A stretch of DNA of 31,602 nucleotides from a virus: positions 1-31,602 of IMG/VR virus record IMGVR_UViG_3300046792_000333. The stretch is one strand, 5' to 3'. Positions 4,214 to 26,023 of this stretch are shown piece after piece. The notes beneath the pieces were generated by a model. It worked only from the letters and a program-made list of their open reading frames with translations. It had not been told where the DNA came from and ran no database searches. Both the position numbers and the translations under genes were made by a program. The stretch's first letter is position 1; every line of letters begins with the position of its first letter.

Positions 4214-4400
4214 TGCCGGTCCTCTCGTTGGCTTCACGCTCTGCCCACAACTGCCTCAGCCACCGCCGGACATTGTCGATCGAAGGCTCCTGGCCGTCCC
4301 CGAACCGCGCGACGGCCTCCTTCATGTCCTCCATCAGACTCAGCCGCCGCTGGGTGTAGTAGGGCCGCGACCGCTCGCCGTCGTCGTCAAGCCCGCTCAT
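4206..4400 (-). CDS. small helical protein of unknown function
   Basis: A 64-residue protein starting MSGLDDDGERSRPYYTQRRL. It contains the amphipathic segment LMEDMKEAVARFGDG and a second helix with RRWLRQLWAEREANE, so it is mainly helical. It overlaps the upstream gene by 14 bases and the downstream gene by 8, evidence of one translated polycistronic message. No domain is recognised. Confidence 0.55.
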   Translation of the reverse strand: MSGLDDDGERSRPYYTQRRLSLMEDMKEAVARFGDGQEPSIDNVRRWLRQLWAEREANERTGNE

Positions 4401-4851
4401 GCGAGCCTTCCAACCGCTTGGTCTCGGCTTCGATCACGACGATCTCGACACCGTAGGGCCGCAGCAGGTCGAGCAACCTGTCGCGCGCCAAGAGGTCCGC
4501 ATCCGCGATCGTCGGGGCCTGCACGGTCGTCACGAACCGGTAGACACCCGGCTCCGGGGTCCGGGTGACCCGCTGCTTGGTCAGGTTCGACTCCGCCGCC
4601 ACGTTCAATTCCCCGGAGTCCAAGAAGAACACCTTCCGGCACTCGAAGTGGTCCTCCTGCCCGTAGATGCCACACCACCCCGACGTCGGATCACACGGCG
4701 ATCTGACGGCTTTCGTCGCGGCCAAAGGTCGATGGCAGCGCGGGCACACCGCGTCCACGTCGGCCAGCGTCTGGCGCATGAGGCGTTCCTGCCAGGACGT
4801 CAGCCGCACACCCAGGTGCTCGCGCAGGAAGGTGCTCATCTCCTCGGCCAT
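4387..4851 (-). CDS. zinc-binding protein of unknown function
   Basis: A 154-residue protein whose ATG at 4851 overlaps the stop of the upstream gene (TGATG). The same reading frame stays open upstream for 91 codons, but this stretch lies inside the Lsr2-like neighbour and is Arg/Gly-rich noise, so the internal start is preferred. It opens MAEEMSTFLREHLGVRLTSW. The pattern CPRCHRPL near residue 36, with later Cys residues in SPCDP, GWCGIYG and FECRKVFF, suggests a rubredoxin-like or zinc-ribbon domain in the first half. The second half (YRFVTTVQAPTIADADLLAR) looks like a small alpha-beta domain. Confidence 0.6.
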   Translation of the reverse strand: MAEEMSTFLREHLGVRLTSWQERLMRQTLADVDAVCPRCHRPLAATKAVRSPCDPTSGWCGIYGQEDHFECRKVFFLDSGELNVAAESNLTKQRVTRTPEPGVYRFVTTVQAPTIADADLLARDRLLDLLRPYGVEIVVIEAETKRLEGSHERA

Positions 4852-5429
4852 CACGCCGCCTGGACGTTCTGCCCGGCCGCCAGCCGCGCCGCGACCACCC
4901 CGTAAGGATCGCCGTGCTCTTCGGCGAAGCTGAACAGCTGCGACGCCGAAGGAGTCTCCGGGTGAATTCGCGCGGCGTGCATCCCCATCATCTGGAAACC
5001 GGTCTTCCCGCACGCTGGGCACTGCCCGCCGTAGGCATCGGTACTGTCGGCGAAGCCATGCACCCGCTGGAGATGCGTCGTCAACGATGCAGCGCCACCG
5101 AAGTTCAACGGACACCACAGGCACTGATGCTCGCGCTCGCCGCTGGCCGGCGGACGCCCCCGCCGGACCCCGGAGTTCACCGACTGCGCCATGATCCCCT
5201 CAGGCGAGGTGGCCGAGACACGGGCCGCCGCCTCCTGCTTCTCGGGCCGCAACTTCAGTTCGGCAACCAGGTCCACCAGCGGCGCGAGCACGACCTCATT
5301 GCACGCCGCGCACAGGTCGATCTTGTACTGCTTGCCGTTCAAGCCGAACGCCCGCTCCTCAGCCTCGGCCCGCATTTCAGCCGCCGCGCACCGGTCACAC
5401 CAGCGCAGCACCTTGATCTCGGTGGCCAC
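4851..5429 (-). CDS. Lsr2-like DNA-binding protein with AT-hook and two C2H2 zinc fingers
   Basis: A 192-residue protein with a GTG start one base after the upstream stop. Residues 1-58 resemble the Lsr2 dimerisation domain of actinobacterial nucleoid proteins, with EIKVLRWCDRC, FGLNGKQYKIDLC and APLVDLVAEL, but carry extra CxxC pairs (Cys11/14, Cys40/43). Residues 89-94 contain RGRP, an AT-hook core. Residues 103-124 form a textbook C2H2 finger (C-x2-C-x12-H-x4-H, with Phe110 and Leu116 in place). Residues 137-156 form a second, C-x2-C-x10-H-x4-H. Lsr2 bridges AT-rich DNA and silences foreign genes, so the phage protein probably binds or bridges DNA. The combination of domains is unusual. 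Confidence 0.6.
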   Translation of the reverse strand: MATEIKVLRWCDRCAAAEMRAEAEERAFGLNGKQYKIDLCAACNEVVLAPLVDLVAELKLRPEKQEAAARVSATSPEGIMAQSVNSGVRRGRPPASGEREHQCLWCPLNFGGAASLTTHLQRVHGFADSTDAYGGQCPACGKTGFQMMGMHAARIHPETPSASQLFSFAEEHGDPYGVVAARLAAGQNVQAA

Positions 5430-5430
5430 C

Positions 5431-5784
5431 TCACACGACCTTCTTTCCGCTCTTGCTCGCCGTCTTCTCCGCGAGCCGTTCCGTCACCCGCAACGCCATC
5501 GCGTCGCGGTCCGCCTCCTGCATCCGGCCACTGCCAGCAGGCCGCAGATAGCCGTCCACATAGTCAACCGACCAGCGACTCCGCTTCCCGGTCGAGTACA
5601 CCAAACGACTCCACTGCGACGTACAGCGCCGACACCGCAGCACCTCCCGGTAAGCGTGCGCATCGCTGTCCCACCAGGCCCTCCACGGGAACCTGGCATG
5701 CATGTAATCGCGGCACTCCAGGTATGCCTCCGGGACCTCATCGATCCAATCAAGCACGTCGGCATGCACGGCCTCATCGACCAC
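5431..5784 (-). CDS. small protein with CxxC motif, unknown function
   Basis: A 117-residue protein. The GTG at 5784 is chosen because GGAGG lies six bases upstream; a TTG 27 bases earlier has no such site. It starts MVDEAVHADVLDWIDEVPEA. It has an aromatic-rich centre (HARFPWRAWWDSDAHAYREV) and then LRCRRCTSQWSRLVYSTG, a CxxC knuckle typical of small actinophage zinc proteins. The C-terminus is basic (EKTASKSGKKVV), suggesting nucleic-acid contact. It heads the leftward operon ending at 3998. Confidence 0.6.
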   Translation of the reverse strand: MVDEAVHADVLDWIDEVPEAYLECRDYMHARFPWRAWWDSDAHAYREVLRCRRCTSQWSRLVYSTGKRSRWSVDYVDGYLRPAGSGRMQEADRDAMALRVTERLAEKTASKSGKKVV

Positions 5785-5934
5785 AGTTAACCTCCGGCGT
5801 CGTTGGCTCAACGCTCTGCTCCCTCCGCTTCGTGTAAAACGCTAGGTTCATCCCTATCGCACGGAGTAGGGCATTCGCCACTTAGCGACGGCAATTCGCC
5901 GCTACAACTGGACACTACTGGACATCAGACGCAC
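5785..5934 (-). promoter_or_regulatory. promoter/operator region of the leftward 3998-5784 operon
   Basis: About 150 bases lie between the start of the leftward operon and the integrase terminator. It contains two similar GGCATTCGCC/GGCAATTCGCC blocks around 5872-5900 and the 18-bp motif AACTGGACACTACTGGAC at 5906-5923, which recurs once more in the window at 9554-9571. On the minus strand TTGTAG at about 5907-5902 followed 17 bases later by TAAGTG is a poor but possible promoter. The assignment is mainly positional. Confidence 0.4.
5906..5923. promoter_or_regulatory. operator-like motif, copy 1
   Basis: AACTGGACACTACTGGAC contains two CTGGAC units spaced by five bases. It matches the copy at 9554-9571 at 17 of 18 positions. 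Both copies lie in leaders of phage operons of opposite orientation. A half copy, ACTGGACATC, spans the start codon of the gene ending at 9346. Confidence 0.45.
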
Positions 5935-5970
5935 AAAAAGGGCCTCCCCGCCAATTCGACGGGGAGCCCT
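5935..5970 (-). terminator. intrinsic terminator of the integrase gene
   Basis: Arms AGGGCCTCCCCG (5939-5950) and CGGGGAGCCCT (5960-5970) pair over 11 bp with a one-base bulge. On the minus strand the stem is followed directly by TTTTT. It lies ten bases after the integrase stop, so it should end leftward integrase transcription and separate it from the 3998-5784 operon. Confidence 0.8.
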
Positions 5971-5980
5971 ATAGCGCGTT

Positions 5981-7468
5981 CTAGGCCGAGTCCGGCGGGC
6001 CATCCCAGGCGAACCTGTTGGTCATCCGTGCCCTGGTCCCCCGACCGGTCGCTGGCATCACCGTCAGCGCCGGGAACGCCCGCTTGATCATCGCGCGGCG
6101 TGCGTCGATATCGGCGTGCTCCCAGTCGTCCACCGTGTCGAGACGCGCCGCGCCGACAGACTCTGGGCCGTCGATCTCAGCCAACCGCGACTCGAGGTCG
6201 GCAGCCGCCGCCAGCACCTTGCTCAATGACCGGTCCACGCGGGCCGCACCCCAGGCCACAACCTTGTCCGCGATTGCGTCAGCGTCCTCATTCAGATCGT
6301 CCAGCTGCTTCGTGATCCGCGCCCGTTCGGCACGCGTGTCCGATGCCCGCCTGGCGATCCTCGCCGCATGCTTCGGGTTCGACAGACGCGTCAGTACGGC
6401 CTCGGTCACCTGGGCGTCAGCGAACCGCTGATCGACGTTCAGGCGACCACAGCCCGAGTTGTACCCGGCGCGCTTTTGGCACCAGTACTCCCGCGCCATC
6501 TCGCCATCTGCGTACGGCGACCGGCTCACCCGTGGCCGCCCGGTCAGCCGATGCCCGCACCGCCCGCAGAAGAGCAGGTAGGTCAGCAGGTATCGCACGG
6601 ACGGCTTCCGGCCCGGCTTGGCCGCCGCGAAATGTGTCTGTACCCGATCCCAGGTCTCGCGGTCCAGCACCGGCTCACCGGACAGCCTGCCCACGTCCTC
6701 GCCGTCGTACGTGACGATGCCGGCCAGTGATGGGCGACGCAGCATCGTATGCAGCGACGTCTCCGACCACAGGAAGCCGTAGGTCGTCGGCAGCTCCGTC
6801 TCGTTCATGAACCGCACCTGCTCGGCACGCGACACCCCTGCGAGCAACTTGCGGGCCACTTCCCGGACCGCCTCGCGCTCGGCCGTCAACTGGGCTTCCG
6901 GCACCCAGATACGCGGCTGGTCCGGCGTCCAGTCCGGTGGGTTCGGCAGGTACCCCGGCATGGCGAACCCGCGATGCGAGGCGTTCGACAGGCCCCGACG
7001 CGCCTTCTTCCGCTTACCCCGCCGGACCCGCTCGCTGATCTTGTCCGACTCGTGCGCGGCAGCTGTCATCGCGTCACGGAACTGCTTCCGACCATCGGCG
7101 GTCTGTAGGTCGTAGGTGGAGTAGGTCGAGGCCACCACCACACCTCGCTTCGCCAACGCCAGCAGCCGCTCTCCCTCCGCTGGCTTGCGGGTGAACCTGG
7201 TCAGGTCGTAGACCTGCACGCCATCGGCCAGGCCGGTCTCCAGACGGGTCATCAGTGCCTCGAAATCCGGCCGCACCACCTTCGGGTTCCACGCGCTCAG
7301 CGCGTTGTCGCGGAACAACTTGCCCACCGTCCAGGCGGGGTTCTCGTTGATCGCGTCAACGTTGTCCTCCTCCTGGCTCTCCACCCGCCGCAGGGTGCCG
7401 TCAGGCTCCCGCGAGATACGACTGTAGGAGTCCATCACTTTCAGTTCCCTGCTCTGCGTTCTAGCCAT
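5981..7468 (-). CDS. int: large serine recombinase (phage integrase)
   Basis: A 495-residue site-specific recombinase that would integrate the phage at a host attB through a covalent serine-DNA intermediate. The N-terminal resolvase domain shows the catalytic motif YSRIS (Ser19), then RPDFEALM and a D-LTRFTRKPAEG helix region. A recombinase domain follows (GYLPNPPDW, LHTMLRRPSLAGI). The zinc-ribbon domain carries Cys301, Cys304, Cys330 and Cys340 (CGRCGHRL, then YWCQKRAGYNSGCG). A coiled-coil-like stretch spans about 375-440 (RAERARITKQLDDLNEDADA). The length fits complete large serine integrases. A candidate attP lies just upstream and an intrinsic terminator just downstream, so it is an independent leftward unit. 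Confidence 0.93.
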   Translation of the reverse strand: MARTQSRELKVMDSYSRISREPDGTLRRVESQEEDNVDAINENPAWTVGKLFRDNALSAWNPKVVRPDFEALMTRLETGLADGVQVYDLTRFTRKPAEGERLLALAKRGVVVASTYSTYDLQTADGRKQFRDAMTAAAHESDKISERVRRGKRKKARRGLSNASHRGFAMPGYLPNPPDWTPDQPRIWVPEAQLTAEREAVREVARKLLAGVSRAEQVRFMNETELPTTYGFLWSETSLHTMLRRPSLAGIVTYDGEDVGRLSGEPVLDRETWDRVQTHFAAAKPGRKPSVRYLLTYLLFCGRCGHRLTGRPRVSRSPYADGEMAREYWCQKRAGYNSGCGRLNVDQRFADAQVTEAVLTRLSNPKHAARIARRASDTRAERARITKQLDDLNEDADAIADKVVAWGAARVDRSLSKVLAAAADLESRLAEIDGPESVGAARLDTVDDWEHADIDARRAMIKRAFPALTVMPATGRGTRARMTNRFAWDGPPDSA

Positions 7469-7578: not shown

Positions 7579-7791
7579 CTAGAGGTCATGGCTGCACAGC
7601 GGGCAGAAGGTGATCTTGTCGGGATCACCGGGCGGCAACGTGAGGCCGATCTCGGCGCACAATAGCCGCGCATCGGCCAGGAGGTCGTCGCCGGTGACCC
7701 AGCAGTGCCCGCACTCTCCGCAGACCACATACGCGTCGTCGGGAATGGGCTCGTGGCCATGCCAGAAGCATCCGAGTTCGGCGTCAAGCAT
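7579..7791 (-). CDS. small zinc-ribbon protein
   Basis: A 70-residue protein starting MLDAELGCFWHGHEPIPDDA. Cys pairs in VVCGECGHCW and FCPLCSHDL form a rubredoxin-like zinc ribbon. Its ATG overlaps the upstream stop by eight bases (ATGCTTGA). It is the last gene of the leftward immunity-type operon. No catalytic motif is visible. Similar proteins are frequent in actinophages and have no assigned role. Confidence 0.6.
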   Translation of the reverse strand: MLDAELGCFWHGHEPIPDDAYVVCGECGHCWVTGDDLLADARLLCAEIGLTLPPGDPDKITFCPLCSHDL

Positions 7792-8026
7792 CGCGTCCGC
7801 CGTCCCACAACGCGAGCGTCGTCACCGCGAGGATGGTCACCGTGGCCAGCAGGGCACCGCGCCACAGCGCCCCGGAGACCAGCGCCAACGCGACCGTCGT
7901 CGCCACCCCGATCACCTCGCCCAGGGCGAGCAGCAGGACGCCCCGCGAGGCTATCGACTTGTGGGTGGGGGTGTCCCCGGCCCATTCGCTGCCCACGCCC
8001 TCATCTCCTCCGTCGTCCGGCATCAT
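7784..8026 (-). CDS. small membrane protein, two transmembrane segments
   Basis: An 80-residue protein with an acidic N-terminus (MMPDDGGDEGVGSEWAGDTP) and two hydrophobic segments, about residues 30-48 (VLLLALGEVIGVATTVALAL) and 56-73 (RGALLATVTILAVTTLAL). It ends in WDGGRDA. It overlaps genes on both sides and lies in the repressor operon, a frequent place for membrane proteins that block superinfection. That role is only a possibility suggested by position. The first or second ATG could be the start. Confidence 0.55.
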   Translation of the reverse strand: MMPDDGGDEGVGSEWAGDTPTHKSIASRGVLLLALGEVIGVATTVALALVSGALWRGALLATVTILAVTTLALWDGGRDA

Positions 8027-13467: not shown

Positions 13468-13700
13468 CCGACTTCGATCCGAAGCGACTCCGCGCCGTGC
13501 GTCTGGCGCGCGGCCTGACCACCTTCCCGCCCACCGATGCCGACGTCCTTCTGGATCTGTACGGCCTGACCCCGGAGCAGTCGGTGGTGTGGCTGCGGCT
13601 CGGTGACCTGATCGATGAGGCGCTGGAGCAGTTCGAGAAGGGCTACGCCGTGGACGTCGAACGACACATGGCCGACATCGCCAAGCAGGTGTGCCCATGA
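13464..13700 (+). CDS. chimeric protein with truncated XRE N-terminus
   Basis: A 78-residue protein. Its first ~19 codons (MTDFDPKRLRAVRLARGLTT) are almost identical to the preceding XRE gene at the DNA level, with three differences in about 60 bases. The sequence then switches to FPPTDADVLLDLYGLTPEQS and an acidic helical C-terminus ending HMADIAKQVCP. The helix-turn-helix recognition helix is missing, so it cannot bind DNA as an XRE protein. The fragment looks like a duplication that supplied a start and first helix to an unrelated gene. Coupled by ATGA on both sides. Confidence 0.6.
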   Translation: MTDFDPKRLRAVRLARGLTTFPPTDADVLLDLYGLTPEQSVVWLRLGDLIDEALEQFEKGYAVDVERHMADIAKQVCP

Positions 13701-14119
13701 GCACCGACCTGTGGCACTACACCTGCGACCACGGTCACCAGGGCATCGGAACCGAAGGCCAACTCCTGCCCCCGACCACACTCGACCCGATGCTGATCCT
13801 GAAGGCGCGGGCGGTGATGGGCCACGGCCCGGCGGTGAGCCTGTTCCTGTCGCTGGTCTGGTTGACCGACCTCGAGGAGCCCGACCGCGAAGGTCTCGGG
13901 TTGACGATGCGGCTCATCACCTGCGACCGGACCCGGCACCGATACCGGGTGACCGAGCCCCATATCTGCAAGCCGTACAAGGGCATCCGAAAACTGCTAC
14001 CGATGACGATGCGGGCAGAACTGGAGCAGGTGCCGCATGCGCGGCCCGACCACTGGTGGATCGCCTTCGAGCCGGTCGCCGTCACCTACGACCCGGTGCA
14101 GGTGGAGGCGTCACGATGA
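13697..14119 (+). CDS. hypothetical protein with HYTCDHGH N-terminus
   Basis: A 140-residue protein starting MSTDLWHYTCDHGHQGIGTE at an ATG overlapping the previous stop; a GTG two codons earlier is possible. The layout, LWHYTCDHGHQGIGTEGQL followed by a hydrophobic LFLSLVWLTDLEEPDREGLG strand and 'R.TRHRYRV', resembles a class of small phage and bacterial proteins with an ADP-ribosyltransferase-like N-terminal pattern. That comparison is tentative. The C-terminus ends DHWWIAFEPVAVTYDPVQ. Its last nine bases overlap the end of a minus-strand gene. Confidence 0.6.
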   Translation: MSTDLWHYTCDHGHQGIGTEGQLLPPTTLDPMLILKARAVMGHGPAVSLFLSLVWLTDLEEPDREGLGLTMRLITCDRTRHRYRVTEPHICKPYKGIRKLLPMTMRAELEQVPHARPDHWWIAFEPVAVTYDPVQVEASR

Positions 14120-14467
14120 TCCGCTACATGCCCCGCTGTAAACATGGTCGGCATAGGCGCGGATCACCGCGTGGGCCAGGTCTTCCGGCTCGGGCCGCCG
14201 ATCCATTCGGAACGACGGTCCGTGGAGCGGTGCCCGGCAGTTCGGACAGAAGTGCAGGATCTCAGCCGTGGGGTGACTCTCCTGCCAGCGCTCGTAGGGA
14301 CGGTCCGGCCAGGGCTGTCGCCCCCACCACGCGCCGCTCGGTCGCGGCTTGTCCAGCTTGCGGCGATACCTGCGCGGCCCACGCCGCTGCCGAATCGGGT
14401 GAGTCTCCCGGAAGGGTCGCGCCGATAGCAGGGCCTGACGGATCGCCTCGTTCAGTTCCTCGTTCAT
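14111..14467 (-). CDS. small zinc-binding protein, minus-strand insertion
   Basis: A 118-residue protein starting MNEELNEAIRQALLSARPFR at an ATG that overlaps the stop of the upstream T5orf172-like gene. It has an Arg-rich middle (RQRRGPRRYRRKLDKPRPSG), a CPNCRAPLHG knuckle, and a conserved-looking EDLAHAVIRAYADHVYSG tail. It runs against the surrounding rightward early operon and converges on the preceding gene with a short overlap. No family recognised. Confidence 0.5.
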   Translation of the reverse strand: MNEELNEAIRQALLSARPFRETHPIRQRRGPRRYRRKLDKPRPSGAWWGRQPWPDRPYERWQESHPTAEILHFCPNCRAPLHGPSFRMDRRPEPEDLAHAVIRAYADHVYSGACSGSS

Positions 14468-14805
14468 GCCGCGTCCTTCCGCTTCGCTCCGAGGATGACC
14501 TGGCGCAGCACCGCCAACTCGCGGTACTTGCCCTCCGCAACCAGCTGTGTGATCAGCCACAGCAGCAGGTCGTCGCCCGGACGGAACCACTCACTGCGGC
14601 TGATCCGGTAGCGGTGCCAGATGTCGAAGGCCCGCCGCTCGTCCAGTTCCGAGCCAGGCTCGGTGTACAGGATCGTGACCCCGAGTTCGCCGCCACGACG
14701 CCTTGCTGGGCGTCGGGTGTAGCCGATCTTGATGTTGCAGCCATCGGTCGCGTAGTACACGATTCCCGGCTGCACGTCCGCGCCGAACAGTGCCAGTTGC
14801 TCCAT
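14464..14805 (-). CDS. T5orf172/GIY-YIG-like protein
   Basis: A 113-residue protein starting MEQLALFGADVQPGIVYYAT. Residues about 14-75 read as a T5orf172-type domain of the GIY-YIG nuclease superfamily: GIVYYATDGCNIKIGYTRRP, then LGVTILYTEPGSELDERRAF and WHRYRISRSEWF. In family members the second strand carries 'vKIGyT', as here, and Tyr/Arg residues contribute to catalysis. AAAGGAATTCACC precedes the ATG. With the downstream zinc protein it forms a two-gene minus-strand unit inside the plus-strand early operon, consistent with a mobile or moron-type insertion. Confidence 0.65.
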   Translation of the reverse strand: MEQLALFGADVQPGIVYYATDGCNIKIGYTRRPARRRGGELGVTILYTEPGSELDERRAFDIWHRYRISRSEWFRPGDDLLLWLITQLVAEGKYRELAVLRQVILGAKRKDAA

Positions 14806-14823
14806 GGTGAATTCCTTTGGTTC

Positions 14824-14866
14824 GGAGGCGTGCAGAATCTGCGCCTTACAGCGGCGCAGTGCCTCC
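14824..14866. promoter_or_regulatory. nested inverted repeat in divergent intergenic region
   Basis: GGAGGC (14824-14829) pairs with GCCTCC (14861-14866), enclosing a perfect stem CTGCGCC (14839-14845) / GGCGCAG (14853-14859). It sits in the 140-base gap between the leftward T5orf172-like gene and the rightward zinc-protein gene. It may be an operator or a transcript structure. No T-run follows on either strand. Confidence 0.45.
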
Positions 14867-14945
14867 GGAACGCACGAGCAGGACTCGCGGCACGCCGGGA
14901 CGTGCGGGCAGATGCCGTTGACGAATTTAGCAGGGGGTTCCGACC

Positions 14946-15596
14946 GTGACCAGCACCGATGTCCGCCGTTGCGCGGTCAACCGATGTACCGGACCGGATG
15001 GCCGGCCACGGCTGCTGTCCGGCGACCAGCTGGCCTGTGACTCGTGCATCCATCAGGGCCACGGTGACATCGCTGGCCTGCCGCGTCGGTACGTGATGCT
15101 GCGACTGGCCTTGCAGTACCGGGGCGGTCAGCCCGAGAAGATCACCGGCCCCGGCTTCGGGTCGAGGTCGCCGTTGCGCGACGCCGCGCTGGTGGCGATG
15201 GAGTCGGTAGTTGCCTTTTGCATCGACACCGACAACCGGCTCCGCTCGGAGATGGAATTCCGGCAGCGGCCCTACAGCCTGATGAGGCCAGCCCAGGCAC
15301 TGTCCGCCTCGACGGCGAGCACCCTGGCGTTGTGGTGGCGGGGTGTGTGCTACCCGGCCGGGGTCGCGGCCATCGATGGCAGTGCGCGGATGCGCTGGCA
15401 CGTCGACCAGGTGCTCGGCTGGACCCGGCTGCGGCACCGACTGCCAGCACCCTGCCCGTACTGCGACCTGATGACCCTGGTCCGCGACGACGGCTCCGAC
15501 TTCGTCCGGTGCAGCGGCTGCCACCGCAGCTGGAACGAGCGGGAGTACGCGTTGTTCGTGCGGATGCTGGCCGATGAGATGGGAGCGACCGGATGA
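14946..15596 (+). CDS. zinc-finger protein of unknown function
   Basis: A 216-residue protein with a GTG start preceded by AGGGGG. The N-terminus MTSTDVRRCAVNRCTGPDGR and LACDSCIHQGHGDI contains four spaced Cys. The middle is helical (LRDAALVAMESVVAFCIDTD, ASTASTLALWWRGVCYP). The C-terminus holds a zinc ribbon, CPYCDLMTLVRDDG then FVRCSGCHRSWNEREY. Two zinc modules flanking a helical domain recall small replication or transcription accessory proteins found in actinophage early regions. No catalytic signature is visible. Confidence 0.65.
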   Translation: MTSTDVRRCAVNRCTGPDGRPRLLSGDQLACDSCIHQGHGDIAGLPRRYVMLRLALQYRGGQPEKITGPGFGSRSPLRDAALVAMESVVAFCIDTDNRLRSEMEFRQRPYSLMRPAQALSASTASTLALWWRGVCYPAGVAAIDGSARMRWHVDQVLGWTRLRHRLPAPCPYCDLMTLVRDDGSDFVRCSGCHRSWNEREYALFVRMLADEMGATG

Positions 15597-24504: not shown

Positions 24505-25042
24505 TTCTTGCTCCCTTCACTGCCGGATGCCGTCCGGCGGCGGTTGCCCATTGGGCAGCGCGTAAGGCAACGACCCGAAGGTCGTTGCCCCACGCAACCG
24601 AATGGGTGAAGAGAGAGCATTCACTATTGAGATGTCAAGAATCGTGGGAATTCACCGCCCCGCAGGTCTGGCACTGCCAGTGCTTGTCTCCCATGGCGCT
24701 TGGAAAGCCGTCCGCGCGTTGCCCTGCCCCCTCCCTGGTGGCAGACCATAGGACCCTGTCTCTCCCGCCGGATTGCCTGCCTGGTGCCCCCTGGTGCCCC
24801 CTGGTGCGCCTGATGGCGTCCCTGGTGACTCCCTGGGTGGCCCGTTGGGCAGGTACTGCCGTGCGGGGTCGGTGCGCGTGCCAGCGAAGCGCGTATGTCC
24901 TCGCATGTGGCGCGTACCGGGGTCGGTGTCCAGTTGTGAATCTTCGAGTCCGCAACTCCCGCCCGGTCTCCCGGATGGGGGTGGAACACCCCCATCCTAC
25001 CACCCGTTCCAAATCTGGCCCGAAAATGTGCCAAGACACGCT
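24505..25042 (-). other. long structured leader of the leftward cassette
   Basis: About 540 bases without a well-supported gene. It contains module L: stems GCCGGA/TCCGGC (24522-24538), TGCCCA/TGGGCA (24545-24557) and GGCAACGACC-CGAA-GGTCGTTGCC (24566-24589), plus GAAGGGAGC at 24518-24510. Further upstream are tandem CCTGGTGCCC-type units at 24779-24804 and a perfect hairpin GGATGGGGGTG/CACCCCCATCC (24973-24997). A 19-codon minus frame at 24635-24694 (MGDKHWQCQTCGAVNSHDS) has a CxxC knuckle, but its start lacks the 9-mer; it may be a tiny gene or remnant. Confidence 0.5.
24635..24694 (-). CDS. possible 19-residue zinc-knuckle peptide or gene remnant
   Basis: MGDKHWQCQTCGAVNSHDS followed by a stop. 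The 'HWqC.tCG..Ns' pattern looks like the start of a zinc ribbon truncated after the first knuckle. The upstream frame stays open but is low-complexity. There is no GAAGGGAGC before the ATG. Listed because the pattern is protein-like; it may not be expressed. Confidence 0.25.
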   Translation of the reverse strand: MGDKHWQCQTCGAVNSHDS

Positions 25043-25070
25043 TATTTACAAGGGAAACTCGATTTGACAA
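25043..25070 (-). promoter_or_regulatory. candidate promoter of the leftward cassette
   Basis: On the minus strand TTGTCA (25070-25065) is followed, after 16 bases, by TAAATA (25048-25043) in a locally AT-rich stretch. Transcription would begin near 25036 and run into the long leader. The consensus fit is moderate. AATCG-containing repeats lie immediately upstream (25078-25130). Confidence 0.45.
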
Positions 25071-25077
25071 GGTCCTG

Positions 25078-25131
25078 AAAATCGACCCCAAATCGGGCCG
25101 AAATCGACCCCGAAATCAACACAATCGAACA
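25078..25131. repeat. AAATCG-type repeats upstream of the cassette promoter
   Basis: AAAATCGACCCCAAATCGGG and GAAATCGACCCCGAAATCAA are near-identical tandem units, followed by AATCGAAC. They lie directly upstream of the candidate -35 of the leftward promoter and about 100 bases upstream of the rightward start at 25199, so an activator or repressor bound here could act on both. Confidence 0.45.
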
Positions 25132-25198
25132 GAGTTTCGAGCGAAAATGGCCTCTGCCCACGTTGCGTTTTCGCCGGCTCGTTGCGGGAGGCAACTAG

Positions 25199-26023
25199 AT
25201 GGCCGAGGCGGATGACGCATGGTCGGAAATCCCGCAGTACGGCCATGGCGTGCTTCCCGGCTGGGAGCCGTATGAGGGTGAGGATCGGCCGCTCGACGAT
25301 GGCGGCGTCTGGCTGGACAGCGGACGGCTGTGTGAGTGGGTGCGCGAACGCAGCCCGAAGGTGATGCTCGGGTTCTCCACGGGCAAGGACAGCATCGCCG
25401 CGTGGTTCCGCCTGCGGGAGTACTGGTCCGCCGACGACATCTACCCGTACTTCCTCTACCTCGCGCCGCGCATGCCGATGATCGAGCGCAGCCTGACCTA
25501 CTACGAAGACGTGCTGGGCACGGACATCTGGCGGATGCCGAACCGCTCGGTGTACCGGTTCCTCAATGATGCGGTCGCCCAGACGCCGGCCAACCTGCCG
25601 GTGATCATCGGGGCGCAACTGCCGGACATGTCCTACCCCGACATCTACGACTGGCTGGCCGTGGACATGGGCATCGCGGACGAGCACCCCTGGGTCGCGC
25701 ATGGGGTCCGATCGGCGGACTCCCCGATGCGTCGGATGCTGCTGAAGAAGCACGGTCCGTGGCGGCCGAACGAGCGGGCGTTCTACCCGATCCATGACTA
25801 CTACGTCGCGGACATCCGCCGGGTGCTGACCGAGACCGGGGTCAAGTTGCCGGTGGACTACCGCCTGTTCGGCCGGTCGTTTGACGGTCTGGATCACCGG
25901 TTCGCGGCACCGTTGCGCGAGAACTTCCCGGAGGACTTCGAGGCGCTCCGTGCGCTGTACCCGCTGATGATCCTCGATTCCTGGCGACGAGGGGACGGAC
26001 CAGACCCGCATGACTTCCAGTGA
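25199..26023 (+). CDS. PP-loop PAPS-reductase-like protein
   Basis: A 274-residue protein of the phosphoadenosine-phosphosulfate reductase/ATP-pyrophosphatase superfamily. The PP-loop is clear: VMLGFSTGKDSIAAWFRL with Ser60-x-Gly62-Lys63-Asp64-Ser65. A strand-helix unit follows (YPYFLYLAPRMPMIERSLTY), then GTDIWRMPNRSVYRFLNDAV and HGVRSADSPMRR. The usual C-terminal ECGLH-type cysteine of assimilatory reductases is absent, so sulfate reduction is unlikely. Phage members are suspected to adenylate or modify nucleic acids, comparable to DndC, but this is not shown. GGGAGG lies upstream of the ATG. Confidence 0.75.
   Translation: MAEADDAWSEIPQYGHGVLPGWEPYEGEDRPLDDGGVWLDSGRLCEWVRERSPKVMLGFSTGKDSIAAWFRLREYWSADDIYPYFLYLAPRMPMIERSLTYYEDVLGTDIWRMPNRSVYRFLNDAVAQTPANLPVIIGAQLPDMSYPDIYDWLAVDMGIADEHPWVAHGVRSADSPMRRMLLKKHGPWRPNERAFYPIHDYYVADIRRVLTETGVKLPVDYRLFGRSFDGLDHRFAAPLRENFPEDFEALRALYPLMILDSWRRGDGPDPHDFQ

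Follow-up and report, generated by a model that had tools for sequence, protein, structure and literature searches.

Xenogeneic silencers decide the expression of incoming DNA. Lsr2 forms dimers and oligomers through its N-domain, and C2H2 fingers are DNA-binding modules. Lsr2 has been classed as a treble clef whose known structure is without zinc (Kaur and Subramanian, 2016; PMC4999995, in the part concerned with Lsr2). Lsr2 was surveyed in 2951 actinophage genomes by Sharma et al. (2021), whose account includes the Ku-Lsr2 fusions of cluster J phages, and the strings 'zinc' and 'cystein' are both absent from the main text of that survey (PMC8612146). Among the papers searched, none describes the combination of an Lsr2-type domain and a zinc finger in a phage protein.

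The DNA analysed here (the window), an IMG/VR virus record, is 31,602 bases long and harbors genes for an HTH regulator, an excisionase, RecE/RecT, a terminase, a portal, tail proteins and an endolysin. Owing to this gene content (integrase, excisionase, terminase, portal, tail and endolysin), the window is taken to be a temperate tailed phage, the terminase of which is nearest to those of mycobacteriophages (46%). The first-pass annotation had described, at 4851-5429, an open reading frame joining an Lsr2-like domain to an AT-hook and two C2H2 fingers. An ORF with this layout was confirmed on the minus strand, where it encodes 192 amino acids with coding-like composition (third-position GC 0.85). 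The minus-strand genes are packed tightly around it, with a single base between its start and the stop codon of its upstream neighbour, and a terminator-like hairpin (5966-5944) divides this run from a serine integrase (5981-7468). The features of the locus are as follows.

4387..4851, minus strand: next gene of the run; its start overlaps the stop of the gene of interest (TGATG); no significant family
4851..5429, minus strand: gene of interest, 192 aa, encoding a protein with an Lsr2-type N-domain and C2H2 fingers; GTG start at 5429
5431..5811, minus strand: partner gene of the PHROG 4480 family, 126 aa, directly upstream (phrog_4480, E 1.2e-9)
5944..5966, minus strand: intrinsic-terminator-like hairpin, past the integrase; 1 found against 0.3 expected in shuffles

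Elsewhere in the window, a phosphoadenosine phosphosulfate reductase-like gene (25199-26023, plus strand; phrog_2302, 1.7e-17) is placed beside the lowest-GC stretch (~24981-25140), and at 13615-14949 (plus strand) there is a 444-aa ORF that matched no PHROG at E 0.01 and is perhaps spurious. Two small overlapping ORFs are present between the HTH regulator and the integrase (7579-8026, minus strand); by eye, one contains CxxC pairs and the other is membrane-like, and they are possible lysogeny-associated genes.

A family of eight phage proteins

Seven relatives of the window protein with the same layout were found in IMG/VR contigs, giving a family of eight. A degenerate DNA pattern (C-D-x-C ... 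Y-x-x-D-L-C-x-x-[CH]) searched over viral contigs matched 12 contigs, two of which encode the layout, namely, L010 (two fingers; zf-C2H2 2.5e-7, above cut-off) and L011 (one finger). DNA patterns for D-L-C followed by C2H2, used with two linker lengths, matched 4 and 5 contigs, of which two (L093 and L094) and three (L137, L138, and L141), respectively, are members, and the remaining contigs look like chance matches. L094 matches the window protein from end to end, with 61 of 189 residues identical (32%), and L137 has the same C-terminal DPxGVVA tail. Alignment of the eight members revealed ten invariant columns: C11, D12, G32, D38, L39, C40, C103, C106, H119, and H124.

A short-peptide search of viral and genome contigs with the window protein found no relatives, and tblastn of phages and plasmids gave none at E 0.01; at E<=10, eight records were returned, all of them unrelated weak matches (E 1-3). 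Similarly, tblastn of L010, L011, L094, L093, and L141 against named phages gave none at that sensitivity, and a short-peptide search of viral contigs with the integrase and the partner gene found no relatives.

N-domain, fingers and predicted fold

The candidate metal ligands of the window protein comprise all eight of its cysteines and four of its six histidines, arranged as one Cys/His set per domain. The parts of the protein are listed below.

5250..5429, minus strand: residues 1-60, Lsr2-like dimerisation domain (treble-clef type); sub-threshold Pfam Lsr2 match, hhalign match, and PDB 4e1p as best fold match
5388..5399, minus strand: residues 11-14, first putative metal-ligand pair, CxxC; C11 invariant in 8/8 members, its partner Cys or His in 8/8 (by eye)
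5301..5312, minus strand: residues 40-43, second putative metal-ligand pair; DLCxxC here, DLCxxH in most relatives; D38, L39, and C40 invariant in 8/8
5151..5162, minus strand: residues 90-93, RGRP, an AT-hook-like basic motif in the linker, not kept in all relatives
5058..5129, minus strand: residues 101-124, C2H2 finger 1 (C103, C106, H119, H124); ligands invariant in 8/8; Pfam zf-C2H2 E 0.024
4962..5021, minus strand: residues 137-156, C2H2-like finger 2 of reduced spacing (C137, C140, H151, H156), from motif and alignment
4884..4910, minus strand: residues 174-182, C-terminal tail motif DPYGVVAAR, common to L094 and L137

The Pfam Lsr2 model matched the window protein alone at E 0.0093 over residues 23-42, below its cut-off (16 against 29.6 bits). 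Profile-profile comparison by hhalign of three phage members with six canonical Lsr2 proteins gave a probability of 92 and E 5e-7 (7e-7 in a second run), against E 0.3 for a control profile; this fell to a probability of 35 and E 4e-4 with five members (L093 and L094 added) and stood at 88 and E 2.7e-6 with eight, so that the score depends on profile membership and is not robust across 3, 5, and 8 members. The alignment of the eight, read by eye, showed four Cys/His positions in the N-domain of every member, the second and fourth being either C or H, in agreement with the added CxxC pairs noted earlier (C11/C14 and C40/C43).

Tertiary structure prediction of the window protein with AlphaFold gave a mean pLDDT of 63 and a pTM of 0.36, with blocks of residues 21-60 at 74-82 and an N-domain composed of a hairpin (23-30/33-40) followed by a helix (41-59). 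A Foldseek search of the PDB (350,542 chains) placed two Lsr2 dimerisation-domain chains, including 4e1p, at the top (probabilities 0.98 and 0.97), with modest E-values of 0.13 and 0.19. In VIA, the N-domain was aligned with Lsr2 4e1p over 56 of 56 residues (Z 4.5), and the finger region matched the C2H2 finger of the archaeal virus AFV1 (AFV1p06; Z 4.1, rmsd 1.1) and that of Kaiso. The comparison with Lsr2 and C2H2 folds that had been proposed for this protein thus came out in favor of both, from a model whose input alignment included Cys/His Lsr2 N-domains and with fold scores that are modest.

Finger 1 shows the classical spacing C-x2-C-x12-H-x4-H. The exact C2H2 match claimed for residues 103-124 holds for this spacing and in part for the hydrophobic core, in which F110 and L116 occupy two of the three positions and the third is H101. 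The zf-C2H2 model (PF00096) matched residues 101-124 of the window protein alone below its cut-off (15.5 against 25.2 bits); it was recognised in all five members scanned at E<=1 and exceeded the curated cut-off in L010. The second of the two fingers proposed does not stand as a classical one, since its spacing is C-x2-C-x10-H-x4-H, and Pfam gives no call there in the window protein; at this position L094, L137, L010, L138, and L141 have a finger with x12 or x13 spacing, and L093 and L011 end earlier. RGRP is present as described, and the alignment, read by eye, contains a GRP/RGR-type core in four of the eight members; hence, the AT-hook is a weak part of the description and no defining feature of the family. 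When the protein was shuffled 200,000 times, a CxxC...Cxx[CH] pair arose in 0.89% of the shuffles, a classical finger in 0.19%, two fingers in 0.066%, and RGRP in 0.35%; no shuffle combined the first three of these features (0/200,000).

At E<=1, the Lsr2 DNA-binding domain (PF23359) was recognised neither in the window protein nor in five A5 members. As this domain was tested for and is missing, the protein is filed as an Lsr2 N-domain/C2H2 chimera and not as a full Lsr2. Two other assignments were dropped for want of support. The NCBIfam model for MqsA-type antitoxins with CxxC pairs reached E 0.012 (15.4 against 61.8 bits), and for a Ros/MucR identity the family model gave no match to the window protein at E<=1.

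The N-domain pattern was also found in bacterial genomes, in 32 stretches, of which 15 were translated and yielded seven relatives, all from Actinomycetota records. Among five of these that were scanned, PF11774 was above cut-off in two and just short of it in two (best 1.7e-8), and PF23359 was present in four. By these domain matches, there are bacterial bridging proteins that join a Cys/His N-domain to a real Lsr2 DNA-binding domain. The assignment of the phage N-domain to PF11774 draws on these bridging proteins above cut-off, on the profile-profile matches (E 5e-7 to 4e-4) and on the first rank in the PDB fold search; the three agree, and no single one is leaned on. The Lsr2-like dimerisation segment proposed in the first-pass annotation is thereby upheld, and the sequences support residues 1-~60 as an Lsr2-type dimerisation domain with a four-ligand putative metal site at C11/C14 and C40/C43.

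When three phage and seven bacterial N-domains were combined in one profile, 36 of the 396 genomes of the phylum were matched; of the 29 newly fetched loci, 26 read as canonical Lsr2 and one as a Cys/His form, the other two being left unassigned. With a profile of three phage members, 3 of 396 genomes were matched: the Cys/His Lsr2 of G001 at 4.9e-7, another at 5.8e-4, and a canonical Lsr2 (G146) at 8.6e-4. Profile A5 matched 29 of the 394 genomes of the class, and of its 29 loci, 28 read as Lsr2-like proteins with a Cys/His N-domain (the MAREVIS..NVWCDN type in 17, a VCDxH/VCDxC type in 11) and one as an unrelated Fur-like protein. Profile A10 matched 63 of 394 genomes; 20 of these loci were read, of which 17 carried the ligand pattern and none C2H2. 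The architecture was claimed to be distinct, and this claim is supported. The C2H2 form looks phage-bound, given genome searches that scored the best 8-9 candidates per genome, from which rare prophage copies could escape.

Several of the bacterial proteins merit description. Those of L096-L107, L109, L111-L113, and L115 are conserved proteins (MAREVIS..NVWCDN...D[LV]C.EC) with a Cys/His Lsr2-type N-domain, mostly from large genomes, and most have a longer, modified Lsr2-like C-terminus. L108, L110, L114, L116-L121, and L124 encode Lsr2 with CDxH, CDxC or similar, followed by D[LV]CxxH, and with ordinary Lsr2 DNA-binding ends; judging from these motifs, they are probable metal-binding forms of chromosomal Lsr2. 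One actinobacterial genome contains two Cys/His Lsr2-type N-domain matches ~0.9 kb apart (G002:C48:70670-71755; L056 and L059).

The PHROG 4480 partner gene

A PHROG 4480 gene was found upstream of the C2H2 gene, on the same strand, in all eight member records. The gap between the two is -8 to +39 bases in seven records and ~0.8 kb, with small ORFs between, in L011. None of 18 distinct other virus records fetched by the patterns has a PHROG 4480 gene, and five of these hold canonical Lsr2; no P value is attached, since the member records are partly related to one another and cannot be counted as independent (L093 and L011 have common neighbours).

Among named phages, the sample consisted of 57 records with a PHROG 4480 homologue, plus E3, and 12 regions were read. 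In five of the 12, the partner adjoins an annotated Lsr2-like gene with an overlap of 1-8 bases (Gordonia phages Anon and Nedarya; mycobacteriophages Dulcita, Lucyedi, and Jeeves), and the Lsr2-like neighbour in each is of canonical Lsr2 sequence. The other seven regions (P3.1, ReqiDocB7, GMA6, Xenia2, Perlina, Finch, and E3) show no annotated Lsr2 beside the partner. The pairs in the five named phages are located as follows.

L126, 2606-3273: PHROG 4480 gene and annotated Lsr2-like gene
L127, 2582-3267: the same pair
L128, 2604-3264: the same pair
L135, 2625-3285: the same pair
L136, 2552-3264: the same pair

The gene order differs, with the partner upstream of the C2H2 gene here and downstream of Lsr2 in the named phages. 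Section 9 of the actinophage Lsr2 survey makes no mention of a PHROG 4480-Lsr2 pair (PMC8612146). As the partner is common to both, the C2H2 protein seems to replace Lsr2 in a recurring two-gene module, and the sharing of a partner with ordinary Lsr2 is the strongest functional hint for the C2H2 protein. Since the partner is present in every relative found, the gene of interest is probably one half of a two-gene switch acting on viral or host DNA. Structural modeling of the partner proteins gave one acceptable model out of five (pLDDT 74 against 42-52), for which WRKY domains ranked first at E 0.15, a hint.

No sigma-70-like promoter was found at 5700-6100. The GC content dips to 0.54 per 100 bp upstream of the module (lowest 1.5% of the window), and comparable dips precede lsr2 in Anon, Nedarya, Dulcita, Lucyedi, and Jeeves (lowest 0.8-4.1%). 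In the three relatives measured, L094 (7.5%), L010 (11.5%), and L093 (25%), the dip is slight or absent, and nothing is drawn from it.

Proposed function and comparison with known systems

The homology of the N-domain, the finger motifs, the family and the gene pairing are established at the level of sequence, and from them we infer zinc binding, dimerisation, DNA binding, silencing and cooperation with the partner. With moderate confidence, the protein is read as a dimeric, zinc-stabilised Lsr2-like DNA-binding regulator, silencer-like in action, in which the DNA-binding end has been swapped for C2H2 fingers. It would be a temperate actinophage regulator built like Lsr2 with other DNA-binding hardware. 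The N-terminal ~60 residues would fold as the Lsr2 beta-hairpin/helix dimerisation domain, in which C11/C14/C40/C43 would hold a metal, with zinc the likeliest; owing to these ligands, it would be a metal-binding version of a domain that is metal-free in ordinary Lsr2. The dimer would bring two copies of the basic linker and of the two C2H2-like fingers to DNA, so that one dimer could contact two sites or two duplexes and thus act as a repressor or silencer, and the regulator may cooperate with the small PHROG 4480 protein encoded directly upstream. The silencer, anti-silencer or nucleoid-remodelling role suggested earlier is plausible from the sequence features, and the partner shared with ordinary phage Lsr2 adds weight to it.

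More tentatively, a two-gene (anti-)silencing module may exist in actinophages, composed of PHROG 4480 and an Lsr2-type protein whose DNA-reading end is exchangeable between ordinary Lsr2 and eukaryote-style C2H2 fingers (a kind common in animals and plants), permitting retargeting to chosen sequences, with the N-domain as the surviving zinc form of the Lsr2 fold. If this is true, the fingers would retarget an Lsr2-like bridging dimer, e.g., when the DNA is rich in GC and recognition of AT-rich tracts would gain little.

The protein could instead antagonise the host silencer, its N-domain pairing with host Lsr2 and either poisoning bridging or redirecting host Lsr2 to sites that the fingers select, in the manner of H-NST acting on H-NS. 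The missing PF23359 domain would suit such a role, and a review gives precedents: N-terminal fragments of silencers are dominant-negative, the CGP3 prophage is derepressed when such a fragment of CgpS is overexpressed, and H-NST counters H-NS, most likely via heterodimers (PMC7074111). We regard antagonism as unlikely, as the conserved C-terminal fingers exceed what a poison needs, the partner gene also accompanies complete Lsr2 in named phages, and the metal site alters the N-domain, making cross-pairing doubtful.

An ordinary sequence-specific phage transcription factor, repressing or activating a few promoters and using the N-domain merely to dimerise, without being a nucleoid protein, is improbable to about the same degree. 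C2H2 arrays recognise specific sequences in eukaryotes, and the gene lies near an integrase, an HTH regulator and an excisionase. However, the gene pairing equates the C2H2 protein with Lsr2, and in L093 and L011 the gene sits near replication genes, not lysogeny genes. That the protein regulates no DNA at all and is a metal-binding scaffold, its treble-clef and finger domains touching proteins or RNA and PHROG 4480 serving as its partner, appears very improbable: binding to proteins or RNA is frequent among small zinc domains, but the profile and fold likeness here is to the dimerisation domain of a DNA-bridging protein, the linkers are basic, and the partner is shared with Lsr2.

The protein resembles Lsr2 (PF11774 and PF23359, including phage Lsr2-like proteins and CgpS) in its N-terminal dimerisation domain, its occurrence in phages and, in some named phages, the same partner; it differs in having four Cys/His ligands in the N-domain and C2H2 fingers and in being without the Lsr2 DNA-binding domain. 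The ligand-type actinobacterial Lsr2 proteins (L022, L023, L030, L049, and most of L096-L124) share the CxxC or CxH ... D[LV]Cxx[HC] N-domain, whereas they keep an Lsr2 or Lsr2-like C-terminal segment, with C2H2 in none of the 20 loci read. A zinc-bearing form of the same domain is implied to be possible by the treble-clef classification of Lsr2, whose account of Lsr2 names only the metal-free 4E1P (PMC4999995). By their ligand patterns, the Cys/His forms fit as a metal-keeping branch of the Lsr2 treble clef, and a metal-bearing N-domain would be a direct test of the published view of Lsr2 as a treble-clef zinc-finger fold minus zinc. The pairing also offers an initial way into PHROG 4480, a phage family of unknown function, which may supply a component so far missing from the picture of how phage Lsr2 works.

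The Ku-Lsr2 fusion, as described in the survey, is a precedent for a domain swap in phage Lsr2; the fusion retains the C-terminal domain of Lsr2 in place of whose N-domain another stands, and the window protein is the reverse (PMC8612146). With a phage C2H2 version, the half of an Lsr2-type silencer that reads DNA would prove swappable. The H-NS-like silencers of the Ros/MucR family follow the same principle of an oligomerising N-terminus with a C2H2-type finger, and their N-domain, as presented in the relevant part of PMC9779718, has no sequence homology to Lsr2. Phages would thus have reached the Ros/MucR design, an oligomeriser with a C2H2 finger, from an Lsr2 start.
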